From the NCBI GenBank assembly GCA_949298985.1, contig CASFYV010000031.1:1-64000 (forward strand): a stretch of DNA of 64,000 nucleotides. The letters run 5' to 3'. How positions within the stretch are numbered: position 1 is the stretch's first letter; each line of letters starts with the position of its first letter. The notes beneath the pieces were generated by a model. It worked only from the letters and a program-made list of their open reading frames with translations. It was not told the DNA's origin and searched no databases. Positions 2,887-61,313 of this stretch are shown one piece after another. A program made the position numbers and the translations under genes. Source of the stretch: an uncultured bacterium. Its GTDB lineage: Bacteria; Cyanobacteriota; Vampirovibrionia; Gastranaerophilales; Gastranaerophilaceae.

Positions 2887-5406
2887 ATGCCAACAACAGA
2901 AAGTAATAAAAAAGATAAATCAAAAGAAAAAAATAAAGTTTTTTTAACTATACACGGGCATTTTTACCAACCTCCCAGAGAAAACCCATGGTTAGAAGCT
3001 ATTGAACAACAAGATAGCGCAATGCCCTTTCACGATTGGAATGAGCGTATCAATTCAGAATGTTATAACCCTAATTCTGTTTCAAAAATTGTAGATTCAA
3101 AAAACCAAATTCTAGATGTTGTTAATAATTATGAATATATAAGTTACAACTTTGGTCCGACTTTATTATCTTGGATGGAAGAATTTGCACCATTAGCTTA
3201 CGAAAGAGTTATAAGAGCTGATGTTAATTCAAGAAAATTACATTCAGGCCATGGTAATGCAATCGCACAAGTTTATAATCACATGATTATGCCTCTCGCT
3301 AATGAACAAGATAAACAGACTCAAGTAAAATGGGGAATTAAAGATTTTGAGTATCGTTTTGGTAGAAAACCTGAAGGTATATGGCTAGCTGAAACAGCCG
3401 TTGATGATGATACACTAAGAGTTTTAGTTGAAAATGATATCAAATTTACTATTCTATCTCCATATCAAGCTCAAAAAATCAGAAAAGAAGGTGAAAAAAC
3501 TTGGCAAGATGTGAGTTGGGGTAACATCGACCCTGCAAGATCTTATAGGTATTATATAAAATCGGCACCAGGTAAATACATTGATTTATTCTTTTATGAC
3601 GGAGCTATATCTCGTTCTGTCGCTTTTGATGAATTGTTAAAAGACGGTGTTAAATTTGTTAACAGACTAAAAGACGGAATTTCTACCGCAAGAAATTACA
3701 ATCAATTAGTTAATATAGCAACTGATGGCGAAAGTTATGGTCATCATACTAAATTTGGAGATATGGCATTAGCTTATGCCTTAAAAATAAAAGTTAAAGA
3801 TTCAGGATTTACAATTACTAATTATGGAGAATACTTAGAAAAATACCGTAGTGATTGGGAAGTAGAAATAAAACCTGTTTCTTCTTGGAGTTGTTCTCAC
3901 GGTGTAGGTCGTTGGAGTGAAGATTGCGGATGCTCTACTGGTGGGCACCCTGGATGGAATCAAAAATGGAGAAAACCTTTAAGACAAGCTCTTGATTATT
4001 TAAGAGATGAAATGATATCTTTATGTCAAAAACAAGGAAGAAAATATTTTAAAAATCCTCTTGAAGCAAGAAATAATTATATTAATGTTATATTAGACAG
4101 AAGCGATATAAGTGTTAAAAATTATCAAGAAGAATATTTCCTTCCGGATTTAGATGATGAACAAAAAATTCGTGCAATGGAACTTCTTGAAATTCAAAGA
4201 CAAGCTATGCTTATGTATACAAGTTGCGGATGGTTTTTCTCTGAAATTTCAGGTATTGAAACAGTTCAAATAATGAAGTACGCTGCAAGAGTTATGCAAT
4301 TAGCTAAATCGTTTACAAAAAAAGATTTAGAAACACCTTTTTTAGACATTTTAAAAGAGGCTAAGAGTAATATCCCTGAGTTCGGAACAGGAAAAGACGT
4401 TTTTGAAAGATTTGTTAAACCTTCTGTTGTAACTTCTAAGCAATTAGTTAGTCTATGGGCGATTACTTCTTTATATAGAGATATAGAAGATGAAGAAAGC
4501 GTTTATTGTTATAAAATAAAAAAACATTCTTATAAAAAAGTTACAAAAGGTAATTCAAGACTTGTCATTGGGCATATTGAAGTCGAATCGAAAATAACAA
4601 TGGAAAAATCTAATATGGTATTTGCTTTACTTCAATTCTCTGATGGAGATTTTCATTGTGCTATTAAAGAATATTCAGAAATATTCGAAGATATGCAAAA
4701 AGAACTTGTAAGAACATATTTAGTGGCACCTTTAACTGAAATTATTAGAAATATAGATAATTTATTTGGTGCGGAGTACTTTACACTAAAAGATATCTTC
4801 ATAGAAGAAAGACGTCGTATATTAGACACAATGTTAAAAGATAAATTACAATTATTTGCAAGTACTTACGAATCAATGTATAACGAAGGTAAAGGTTCTA
4901 TTTATCAAATGCAAGAACTTGGATTGCAAATTCCGGAAGAGTTTAAAATTTCAGCTCGTTATGTTCTTGCAAAACAATTTAACGAATTATTTAAAGATTC
5001 TAGAGGATTTTTAGATAATGATATAATACAACAAGCTTCTGATATTAATTTTGAAGCAAAAAGAATTGGTATAGAAATAGATAAAACACCTACTTCAAAA
5101 ATATTCAGTAAAAAAGTCGCTCAAAATATTAATCGTTTATCATACGCCTTAGATTTACAACAAGTTGAAGCAACTTTAGAATTATTAAATAGTATTGCAA
5201 GGTTAGAAATAAAAGTCGATATTGCAGAAGCTCAAAGTTATTATTTTTCAAAAATAGTAACAAATATTAGTGAATTGATAAAGAAAATTTCTTGCCAAGC
5301 AGATAAAGATTTACTCATAATGTTATTTGAAATTGGTGAAGACTTGAATATTAATATGGATTATTACAAGCAGATGTTCAATAAAGCTTTGCTAACTAAG
5401 GTCTAG
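2887..5406 (+). CDS. Glycoside hydrolase family 57 protein with DUF3536 domain
   Basis: An 839-residue cytoplasmic protein (no signal peptide). The N-terminal GH57 module shows the HGHFYQPP first motif (near residue 20), the nucleophile motif GIWLAE with its glutamate at about E169, and TDGESYGHH at about 279-287, which carries the presumed acid/base aspartate (about D280). GH57 enzymes act on alpha-glucans as amylases, branching enzymes or 4-alpha-glucanotransferases. The C-terminal half (about 370-830) is the alpha-helical DUF3536-type region found in a GH57 subgroup whose substrate is not well established. The ATG follows the preceding stop by two bases, with a GGAG inside the previous gene's end as likely Shine-Dalgarno. 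The substrate is not predictable from sequence alone. Confidence 0.9.
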   Translation: MPTTESNKKDKSKEKNKVFLTIHGHFYQPPRENPWLEAIEQQDSAMPFHDWNERINSECYNPNSVSKIVDSKNQILDVVNNYEYISYNFGPTLLSWMEEFAPLAYERVIRADVNSRKLHSGHGNAIAQVYNHMIMPLANEQDKQTQVKWGIKDFEYRFGRKPEGIWLAETAVDDDTLRVLVENDIKFTILSPYQAQKIRKEGEKTWQDVSWGNIDPARSYRYYIKSAPGKYIDLFFYDGAISRSVAFDELLKDGVKFVNRLKDGISTARNYNQLVNIATDGESYGHHTKFGDMALAYALKIKVKDSGFTITNYGEYLEKYRSDWEVEIKPVSSWSCSHGVGRWSEDCGCSTGGHPGWNQKWRKPLRQALDYLRDEMISLCQKQGRKYFKNPLEARNNYINVILDRSDISVKNYQEEYFLPDLDDEQKIRAMELLEIQRQAMLMYTSCGWFFSEISGIETVQIMKYAARVMQLAKSFTKKDLETPFLDILKEAKSNIPEFGTGKDVFERFVKPSVVTSKQLVSLWAITSLYRDIEDEESVYCYKIKKHSYKKVTKGNSRLVIGHIEVESKITMEKSNMVFALLQFSDGDFHCAIKEYSEIFEDMQKELVRTYLVAPLTEIIRNIDNLFGAEYFTLKDIFIEERRRILDTMLKDKLQLFASTYESMYNEGKGSIYQMQELGLQIPEEFKISARYVLAKQFNELFKDSRGFLDNDIIQQASDINFEAKRIGIEIDKTPTSKIFSKKVAQNINRLSYALDLQQVEATLELLNSIARLEIKVDIAEAQSYYFSKIVTNISELIKKISCQADKDLLIMLFEIGEDLNINMDYYKQMFNKALLTKV

Positions 5407-5489: not shown

Positions 5490-6320
5490 ATGACAAATAA
5501 TGTTTTAGAAAAAACAAATTCAATTCACCCATCTGCAGTAATACATCCTTCCGCAGAAATTGGTGAAAATGTAAGTATAGGGCCAAATGTAGTAATTGGT
5601 GAAAATGTAAAGATAGGCAATGGTACAAGAATTATTGCAAATGCGTATATTGAATTTGCAGAAATCGGTGAAAATTGTACAATTTCTCCTTTCTCAACAA
5701 TAGGTTCAGAACCTCAAGATTTAGGATATAAAGGAGAGCCTACTAAAGTTGTTATTGGAAATGAAACAATAATAAAAGAAAATGTTACAATTCATAGAGG
5801 CGCTGCTTGTGGCGATTTTACTACAAGAATTGGGAATAAATGTTTAATCATGGTTGGAGCTCATGTTGCTCATAACTGTGTATTAGAGGATCAAGTGATT
5901 TTAGCTAATTTAGTTACTTTAGGCGGTCATGTTCACGTTGGTTTCGGTGCTTTCGTTGGTGGAATGAGCGTATTCCATCAAAATATTAGAATAGGTGATA
6001 TGGCAATTATTAGTGGTTTCTCTGCTTCTCGTCAGGATATTTTACCATATTCAAAAGGCGAAGGTCGTCCACCTGTTCCACGTGGATTAAATGTTATAGC
6101 AATGAAACGTAGAGGGGTTTCTCAAGAAGTTAGAACTGCTACTAATGAAGCTTTTAAACTTTTAATTTCAGAAGACTATAATACTTCTCAAGCTATTGAA
6201 AAAATAAAAGCTGAAATTCCGATGAATGAATATATTGAAAAAATGATTGATTTCATCCAAACTTCTAAAAGGGGAGTTTTATTAAAATCACATAAAAGCG
6301 GTTATCAATCTCTTGAGTAA
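5490..6320 (+). CDS. lpxA: Acyl-[ACP]-UDP-N-acetylglucosamine O-acyltransferase, first step of lipid A synthesis
   Basis: LpxA transfers a 3-hydroxyacyl chain from ACP to the 3-OH of UDP-GlcNAc. At 276 residues it has near-standard length. A left-handed beta-helix of hexapeptide repeats runs from about residue 10 to 190 (IHPSAVIHPSAEIGENVSIG and similar), with GSEPQDLGYKGE at 72-83 and the catalytic histidine in GAHVAHNC at about H125. A short helical C-terminal domain follows. Unlike many bacteria, it is not flanked by lpxD, fabZ or lpxB: the upstream neighbour is the GH57 gene and a terminator follows. Its presence implies a lipopolysaccharide outer membrane. The leader contains a long inverted repeat. 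Confidence 0.95.
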   Translation: MTNNVLEKTNSIHPSAVIHPSAEIGENVSIGPNVVIGENVKIGNGTRIIANAYIEFAEIGENCTISPFSTIGSEPQDLGYKGEPTKVVIGNETIIKENVTIHRGAACGDFTTRIGNKCLIMVGAHVAHNCVLEDQVILANLVTLGGHVHVGFGAFVGGMSVFHQNIRIGDMAIISGFSASRQDILPYSKGEGRPPVPRGLNVIAMKRRGVSQEVRTATNEAFKLLISEDYNTSQAIEKIKAEIPMNEYIEKMIDFIQTSKRGVLLKSHKSGYQSLE

Positions 6321-6344
6321 ATAAAAAAGTAAAGCATGTTTGAT

Positions 6345-6384
6345 AAAGGGTATTAATTACAATTATTAATATCCTTTATTTTTT
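6345..6384 (+). terminator. Intrinsic terminator after lpxA
   Basis: The stem AAAGGGTATTAAT (6345-6357) pairs with ATTAATATCCTTT (6365-6377), with one G-U pair and a 7-base loop, followed by a run of six T at 6379-6384. Confidence 0.8.
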
Positions 6385-6481
6385 AGGCATAATATTAAGA
6401 AATGTAAACTGCTAAAAGCCTTTTAATTTAAGCAAGATGACCTATTATATAAAATTCTGTATATAATATTAATTTACCCAC

Positions 6482-6511
6482 TTGACTTAAAATTCTTATG
6501 TGCAATAATAT
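6482..6511 (+). promoter_or_regulatory. Predicted promoter of an orphan RNA gene
   Basis: TTGACT at 6482-6487, an 18-base spacer, then TAATAT at 6506-6511. This is one of the best -35 matches in the window and is not followed by a protein gene before a strong terminator. An 8-base inverted repeat, TATTATAT (6443-6450) and ATATAATA (6461-6468), lies just upstream and could be an operator. Confidence 0.5.
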
Positions 6512-6517
6512 AAATAC

Positions 6518-6664
6518 ACACTTTAAGTGTAGCCGAAACACTAAATAGCAAAAATATAATATACCCCAAAATCATATAAACTCCTAGATAATAAACACTA
6601 AAAAAGACCATTAGGATGCAGAAAACAAAATCCACTCGCTTCACACACCGAGTGGTTTTTTTTT
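6518..6664 (+). ncRNA. Candidate small non-coding RNA between lpxA and the EamA gene
   Basis: The segment lies after the lpxA terminator, between its own promoter-like element and a strong intrinsic terminator, giving a predicted transcript of about 147 bases. It has no convincing coding frame. Visible structure: a small 5' palindrome (ACACTTTAAGTGT near 6518-6531), a possible 5-bp stem TCCTA/TAGGA (6582-6586 with 6612-6616), and the terminator hairpin. I could not match it to 6S, tmRNA, RNase P or a riboswitch class. It may instead be a leader ending in an attenuator, but the next gene starts 52 bases after the terminator. Confidence 0.4.
6632..6664 (+). terminator. Strong intrinsic terminator of the candidate RNA
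   Basis: CCACTCG (6632-6638) and CGAGTGG (6649-6655) form a 7-bp GC-rich stem with a 10-base loop, followed by nine T (6656-6664). Such a GC-rich stem stands out in this AT-rich region. Confidence 0.85.
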
Positions 6665-6715
6665 GCGTTATGAATTAAATAATTATTAGACTATATTTTA
6701 TAGTAAAATATAACT

Positions 6716-7543
6716 ATGTTATTTACTTCTATTGGAATTTTAATACGAATAGTATCTAATTCTTATTTAAATGTTTTTCAAAAATTTTTGACTAATTACG
6801 GGCAAAAATCTTCGGTTGTAAATTTTTACACTTATTTTGGTTTATTTTTAATAAGTTTATTTTTTATAAATCAAATATCTTTTAATTTCGATTTATTTTT
6901 AAATTTTTTAATAATGGGATTATTAGGAGGCTTAGGTAATTATTTTATTATTAAGGCTTTATCTATAGGAGAATTATCTTCTCTTGCTCCTATTAATTCG
7001 TATAAACCTGTTGTAAGTTTAATTTTTGGAATTATTTTCTTAAAAGAAATACCTTCTTTAAGTGCATTATTTGGGATATTTTTTATTATTTTAGGGACAT
7101 ATTTTATTTTAGGGAAGAATAAAACTTCAATAAATAAGCTTGCTATTTTTTATCGAATATTAGCTTTGATTTTTTCAGGAACTGAAGCTATATTTATAAA
7201 AAGAATAATTCTAATGACTAATGTTTTTAATTCTTTTATTTTGTGGGCATTATCTGGTTTTATTTTTTCTTTAGTTTTTCTTTTGCTTTCGAAAAATAAA
7301 CCGATTATTAAATCATATAAGTATCAAATTTTATTAATTATTGCTGTTGCAATTATGCAATATTCAACAAATTTTGTATTTTCAAAAATTAATGTTTCTT
7401 ATGCTCTTGCCTTTTTTCAATTATCAACTATTTTGAGTGTATTTTTAGGAGTTAATATTTTTAAAGAAAAAGATTTAAAAAATAAAATCGTTGGCTCTTT
7501 AATCATGATCTTTGGAGCTATTTGTATAATTTTGTACCCTTAG
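6716..7543 (+). CDS. EamA/DMT-family membrane transporter
   Basis: A 275-residue, extremely hydrophobic protein with about ten transmembrane helices arranged as two EamA halves. The first half contains SSLAPINSYKPVVSLIFG and then FLKEIPS, typical of the drug/metabolite transporter superfamily, and the second half repeats the pattern with NIFKEKDLKNKIVGSLIMI. The substrate cannot be assigned. The ATG lacks a Shine-Dalgarno, and a -10-like TATAGT at 6699-6704 ends 11 bases before it, so the transcript may be nearly leaderless. It is separated from upstream genes by two terminators and followed by mntP 65 bases later. Confidence 0.85.
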   Translation: MLFTSIGILIRIVSNSYLNVFQKFLTNYGQKSSVVNFYTYFGLFLISLFFINQISFNFDLFLNFLIMGLLGGLGNYFIIKALSIGELSSLAPINSYKPVVSLIFGIIFLKEIPSLSALFGIFFIILGTYFILGKNKTSINKLAIFYRILALIFSGTEAIFIKRIILMTNVFNSFILWALSGFIFSLVFLLLSKNKPIIKSYKYQILLIIAVAIMQYSTNFVFSKINVSYALAFFQLSTILSVFLGVNIFKEKDLKNKIVGSLIMIFGAICIILYP

Positions 7544-61022: not shown

Positions 61023-61219
61023 TGCCGTACTCCACGGGGACTTAGCGGATCTCTTGACTCGAACGCTTAGCGAGGTGCAGAGCCTACTGTGAGGGATATT
61101 GGTAAATTGCCTATGTTTATAGGGTTGTTGATAATTTAGATAATAATGGCGTAAGATATCGAACCGTGTCAGGATGGAAACATAGCAGCACTAAGATAAC
61201 CCTTGCGGGTGTTATTTTT
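61023..61219 (+). ncRNA. ffs: Signal recognition particle RNA (large, Alu-containing form)
   Basis: The 3' half contains the helix 8 signature: GTCAGG (61168-61173), the short stem ATG (61174-61176) with loop GAAA (61177-61180) and CAT (61181-61183), followed by AGCAGC (61184-61189). The 5' part has ACTGCCGTACTCCACGGGG, CTTAGCGG, GACTCGAACGCTTAGCGAGG and ends in a terminator (ATAACCC with GGGTGTTAT then TTTTT). The 5' region resembles the Alu domain of Bacillus- and cyanobacterial-type RNAs, so this is the long form. About 197 bases, shorter than the roughly 265-base Bacillus RNA. SRP RNA works with Ffh to target membrane proteins. Boundaries are estimates. Confidence 0.9.
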
Positions 61220-61313
61220 CTAAAAAGTAGATTTTATAAACAAAATCAATTTGACATTATTTCGATAGGTAGTGGTACGGTTTTATTATAATTTTTTATT
61301 TTAAGGGAATGTA

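Follow-up and report, generated by a model that had tools for sequence, protein, structure and literature searches.

A previously uncatalogued small RNA family of the order Gastranaerophilales: a well-supported gene with a tentative mechanism

We analyzed a window, i.e. the whole stretch of 64,000 nucleotides presented above, and found that its interval 6482-6664 almost certainly represents a free-standing small RNA gene with its own sigma-70 promoter and intrinsic terminator. Judged by sequence comparison, it belongs to a previously uncatalogued small RNA family, whose status as a gene is firm, whereas its mechanism is tentative. We consider it reasonably probable that the gene stands alone, is present in single copy and encodes a trans-acting regulatory sRNA of Gastranaerophilales, whose seed would block start sites. 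Members of this order are relatives of the cyanobacteria that do not photosynthesize; they are common in animal guts and the rumen, and most are uncultured. No study of regulatory or small RNA in Gastranaerophilales was found in the open literature (most subscription journals and preprints lie outside this scope).

Signals, structure and distribution of the predicted transcription unit

The gap between lpxA and the EamA transporter gene comprises 395 bases. It contains first a terminator-like hairpin after lpxA (~6342-6385, fold z -4.07), in agreement with the claim of an earlier note on this DNA that a separate terminator ends lpxA, and then the small RNA unit, whose features are listed in Table 1. 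The gene directly upstream of lpxA (2887-5406) encodes a large protein in which a glycosyl hydrolase family 57 domain and DUF3536 were recognized.

Table 1. Features of the small RNA locus and its flanking genes (window coordinates)
Feature	Position	Strand	Remarks
lpxA	5490-6320		Hexapep and UDP-GlcNAc O-acyltransferase domains
-35 box TTGACT	6482-6487	+	Conservation starts here
Extended -10 (TGC + AATAAT)	6501-6509	+	TGn 6501-6503, AATAAT 6504-6509; 16-nt spacer from the -35 box
Predicted small RNA, ~148 nt	6516-6663	+	Start (~6516) deduced from the -10 box, end from the T-tract; covariance model match 6517-6663
5' hairpin AGUGU-(7 nt)-ACACU	6526-6542	+	AGUGU 6526-6530 with ACACU 6538-6542
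C-rich unpaired element ACCCC	6563-6567	+	ACCCCRAA in the family
Proposed seed CAUAUAAACUCCUA	6573-6586	+	Reverse complement of a ribosome-binding site and start codon (UAGGAG-UUUAU-AUG)
Candidate middle stem	6582-6616	+	UCCUAG 6582-6587 with UUAGGA 6611-6616; the seed would be sequestered in it
Ultraconserved core GACCAUUAGGAUGCAGAA	6606-6623	+	Exact in 96 of 96 carrier genomes
Intrinsic terminator	6632-6664	+	CCACTCG 6632-6638, 10-nt loop, CGAGTGG 6649-6655, T9 6656-6664
EamA transporter gene	6716-7543		Same strand as lpxA

When only this single sequence is considered, the evidence for a promoter-terminator unit at 6482-6664 is suggestive, not decisive. The region contains 30 promoter-like sites (30.7 expected from shuffled sequence), and the RNA body does not fold better than its shuffles (z -0.25 without the terminator and -1.80 with it). 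A terminator scan in which loops of 3-8 nt were allowed misses the terminator of the small RNA, whose loop has 10 nt. We accept the unit as real because conservation spans the region from the -35 box to the end of the T-tract, and because its promoter and its T-run are each kept in 143 of 144 distinct copies.

A BLASTN search with positions 6440-6680 against 57 related genomes gave matches in nearly all genomes of the same genus, at 78-96% identity. In most matching genomes, the similar stretch extends from the -35 box or its immediate vicinity (6481/6482) to the T-tract (6663). Since similarity ends at the -35 box, conservation does not include the inverted repeat previously described just upstream of the promoter. 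Flanks of 50 bases anchored on the ends of the unit have a mean pairwise identity of 0.41 upstream and 0.31 downstream, far below that of the unit itself.

The promoter was found in 143 of the 144 distinct complete copies, as TTGACA (114 copies) or TTGACT (29 copies) with a -10 box at a distance of 16-18 nt; the spacer is 16 or 17 nt in 142 of these 143 copies, and 128 have a TGn extended -10. The earlier note had combined TTGACT with TAATAT across 18 bases: its -35 box is kept in the family, whereas the conserved -10 box is AATAAT. The GC-rich hairpin with nine T residues that it had described is present, and a T-run follows the core in 143 of the 144 distinct copies. The predicted RNA length over the copies has a median of 138 nt (10th-90th percentile 129-149, range 86-162). 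In seven loci of the distant families f2-f5, the -35 box is embedded in a palindrome, AGTGTTGACAnAACACT, that resembles the operator of a dimeric transcription factor; the family of the window lacks it.

With regard to RNA structure, the 5' palindrome of the earlier note corresponds to a conserved 5-bp hairpin, in which 98.7% of the alignment cells are paired, yet which is nearly invariant, with one double change. In the terminator stem, five of seven pairs changed on both sides, which represents real compensation. Because the remaining RNA is nearly invariant, covariation support is confined to the terminator. The middle stem that had also been noted has a candidate, UCCUA(A/G)/UUAGGA, albeit a weak one, which shows one-sided changes to G-U pairs alone and zero compensatory changes and is broken in genus g42; for these reasons, structure between the 5' hairpin and the terminator is treated as a possibility, not as a result. 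Most of the transcript between these two hairpins is predicted to be unpaired, although structure predictions show the seed as half paired in the window copy and as mostly paired in other copies. Identity values for the 5' hairpin and the seed among copies chosen by these motifs were not counted as evidence. In addition, the motif AAACACTAAA occurs twice in the small RNA (6536-6545 and 6592-6601), and either copy could be the pairing partner of the 5' AGUGU.

A covariance model of 134 positions, built from 45 diverse copies and applied at E<=0.01, matched the small RNA in 292 of the 383 Gastranaerophilales genomes searched, normally with one copy per genome; the conservation among relatives that the earlier note had asked for was thus observed. 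The core GACCAUUAGGAUGCAGAA is exact in 96 of the 244 genomes of a phylum sample and, with one mismatch allowed, absent from the remainder, and it was not found in any photosynthetic cyanobacterium of that sample. Using the 18-base core GACCATTAGGATGCAGAA as a probe against 84,980 species genomes, at least 115 matching stretches were obtained. The named groups among the listed matches are Gastranaerophilales, Melainabacteria or Cyanobacteria, and many matches are titled just 'bacterium', mainly from rumen and gut. One listed match proved to be a chance occurrence inside a coding gene and was excluded. More sensitive searches recovered diverged copies with unchanged order of parts in genus g42, whose core differs by one substitution, and in families f2, f3, f4 and f7, with the consensus GGAAGAAGAGA-N-AT-N-GCAGA. 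Four genera that belong to the same family as the window (g33, g34, g38 and g40) yielded no copy; the small RNA could have been lost there or have diverged past detection. No convincing copy was detected outside the order, even by the more sensitive searches, and none in the Cyanobacteria proper, plasmids, phages or viral contigs searched; an RNA of a mobile element, plasmid or phage was rejected for want of a match.

Two genomes contain two full-scoring copies each, reflecting either duplication or a mixed assembly. Moreover, metagenome contigs often end within the small RNA (eight contigs from five genomes), probably because near-identical stretches occur in co-occurring species, as in rRNA genes. 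The small RNA is order-wide, with a core that is invariant over most of the order, and it offers a ready probe for existing metatranscriptomes and a seed alignment from which a new Rfam family could be set up.

Candidate mechanism and the role of the core

Regarding function, we infer masking of ribosome-binding sites, which is the reading best supported by the sequences. The RNA would be transcribed from its own sigma-70 promoter and end at the intrinsic terminator, and the seed CAUAUAAACUCCUA would then pair with the Shine-Dalgarno sequence and start codon of mRNAs and block their translation. UUAGGA inside the purine-rich core (GAGACCAUUAGGAUGCAGAA) could pair with the seed and partly hide it, and a partner RNA or protein probably docks on the core as well. 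The reverse complement of the seed, UAGGAGUUUAUAUG, consists of a Shine-Dalgarno sequence, a 5-nt spacer and AUG. Against the 50 start sites of the window, the seed has a mean pairing energy of -6.63 kcal/mol, compared with -5.49 for coding controls and -5.64 (sd 0.26) for its own shuffles; among five segments tested, it alone beats both at start sites. Family f3 carries an analogous CAUAUAAUCCCCUAU.

Target prediction covered the window and pattern searches of genomes. No seed target site conserved across genomes was detected in the pattern searches; near-perfect seed sites precede unrelated genes and also occur in genomes that do not have the small RNA. One conserved target for the seed was thus rejected.

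The chief rival to start-site masking is that the sRNA works mainly via protein binding at the ultraconserved core and thereby acts as a sponge or scaffold; the anti-start-site segment would then be secondary. We regard this as possible, though unlikely. The seed varies between families, but all of them retain the core, which is exact in all 96 carriers of the phylum sample. Family f6 has the core and lacks the CUCCUA segment, so that the main element may be the core and not the seed. In addition, no conserved 13-nt complement of the core was found elsewhere in the genomes, by which a long antisense target of the core was also rejected. What weakens the protein-binding reading is its partner. 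CsrB/RsmZ-type RNAs sequester CsrA and are marked by several GGA motifs. Similar to these RNAs, the core contains AGGAUG, which resembles a CsrA binding site; unlike them, the window copy has a single GGA, and csrA is missing from many carrier genomes. A CsrA sponge was excluded by co-occurrence, as the presence of csrA does not track the small RNA, and no other partner is suggested. Start-site masking remains our preferred reading.

Other identities of the locus

A divergent lineage version of a housekeeping RNA (6S, SRP, tmRNA or RNase P) would also be single-copy, order-wide, ~150 nt long and conserved past its neighbours, as the small RNA is; such an identity is nevertheless very unlikely. 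Of 15 Gastranaerophilales genomes searched, 12 have a separate 6S RNA, which scores above the family cut-off in half of them, and the small RNA lacks both the long bulged hairpin and the RF00013 match by which 6S RNA is recognized. SRP RNA is located elsewhere in the window (61025-61280; Bacterial large SRP RNA, RF01854, 96.6 bits). Searches of Rfam 15 produced zero matches at gathering thresholds and nothing credible at E<=10, the weak matches to rimP, mir-2001 and STnc370 being due to chance; the earlier note, which could not match the RNA to a known class, is borne out by this search. Most carriers gave a 6S RNA match. Two genomes without the small RNA, one from genus g33 and one from g38, also lack a 6S RNA match, and a joint loss of both RNAs in these genera is possible, on the basis of two genomes only. 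The window's own genome has the small RNA and no 6S RNA match.

We give even less credence to a conserved short protein, encoded either in the sense direction or by the antisense frame of 56 codons (6474-6644) that is present in the window copy. As the earlier note had suggested for this interval, no convincing frame exists: almost none of the 144 distinct copies keeps a frame, sense ORFs are shorter than 20 codons in 135 copies and antisense ORFs shorter than 30 codons in 121, gaps do not occur in threes, and the core is invariant at every codon position.

The least credible alternative, that the RNA is either a leader belonging to EamA or the 3' untranslated region of lpxA, would fit its place between two same-strand genes in the window, but lpxA has its own terminator hairpin, the small RNA has its own promoter and terminator, and both readings, which the earlier note had doubted (3' UTR) or singled out for checking (EamA leader), are excluded because flanking genes and their orientation vary between genera, with the downstream gene on the same strand in 62 loci and on the opposite strand in 75. 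Many unrelated clusters are represented among the genes that flank the small RNA, and it is mainly inside the window's own genus that lpxA precedes it. A conserved genomic position, also proposed earlier, was not observed; since lpxA-EamA is one of many neighbourhoods, the case for an independent gene is in fact stronger.

Comparison with Yfr1 and Yfr2

The closest analogue of the small RNA is Yfr1, a lineage-wide cyanobacterial sRNA in which an unpaired ACUCCUCACAC stands between a 5' stem-loop and a terminator (PMC2190773). The UCCU in its motif is required for target binding (PMC6778093), and Yfr1 regulates cell-wall genes in Nostoc (PMC6974561). In both RNAs, a conserved region with ACUCCU (anti-Shine-Dalgarno) separates the 5' stem-loop from the terminator hairpin. 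Yfr1 belongs to the Cyanobacteria, a sister lineage, and measures 54-69 nt, whereas the small RNA is about twice as long (~130-150 nt). Relative to the Yfr1 plan, the 5' hairpin and the terminator are present, but the stretch between them is far longer, and the CUCCUA within it is predicted to be partly paired. Instead of the invariant 11-mer ACUCCUCACAC of Yfr1, which has no exact match in the 365 loci examined (small RNA copies included), the small RNA carries ACUCCUA(A/G)AUAAU, and the alignment of its copies shows ACUCCUAAAUAAU or ACUCCUAGAUAAU. Unlike Yfr1, it also has the ultraconserved purine-rich core, with the seed-complementary UUAGGA in the same molecule. By this analogy, the small RNA would at best work like Yfr1; it is not a Yfr1. 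It can serve to test whether Yfr1-like start-site masking predates photosynthetic cyanobacteria or arose twice.

The motif of the Yfr2 family is nearly complementary to that of Yfr1, which it counteracts (PMC6778093). UUAGGA in the core of the small RNA could play this counteracting part within the same molecule; the Yfr1 and Yfr2 motifs reside in separate cyanobacterial RNAs, whereas both would be present in one transcript here, with Yfr2 compared via Rfam only. A one-molecule antagonist pair, in which the anti-Shine-Dalgarno seed is hidden by a pseudo-Shine-Dalgarno core (UUAGGAUG), is in our opinion a speculative and rather improbable arrangement. If it is true, binding of a partner to the invariant core would set free a repressor that acts globally on translation, and would do so throughout an order; the pair would be the one-molecule counterpart of cyanobacterial Yfr1/Yfr2.
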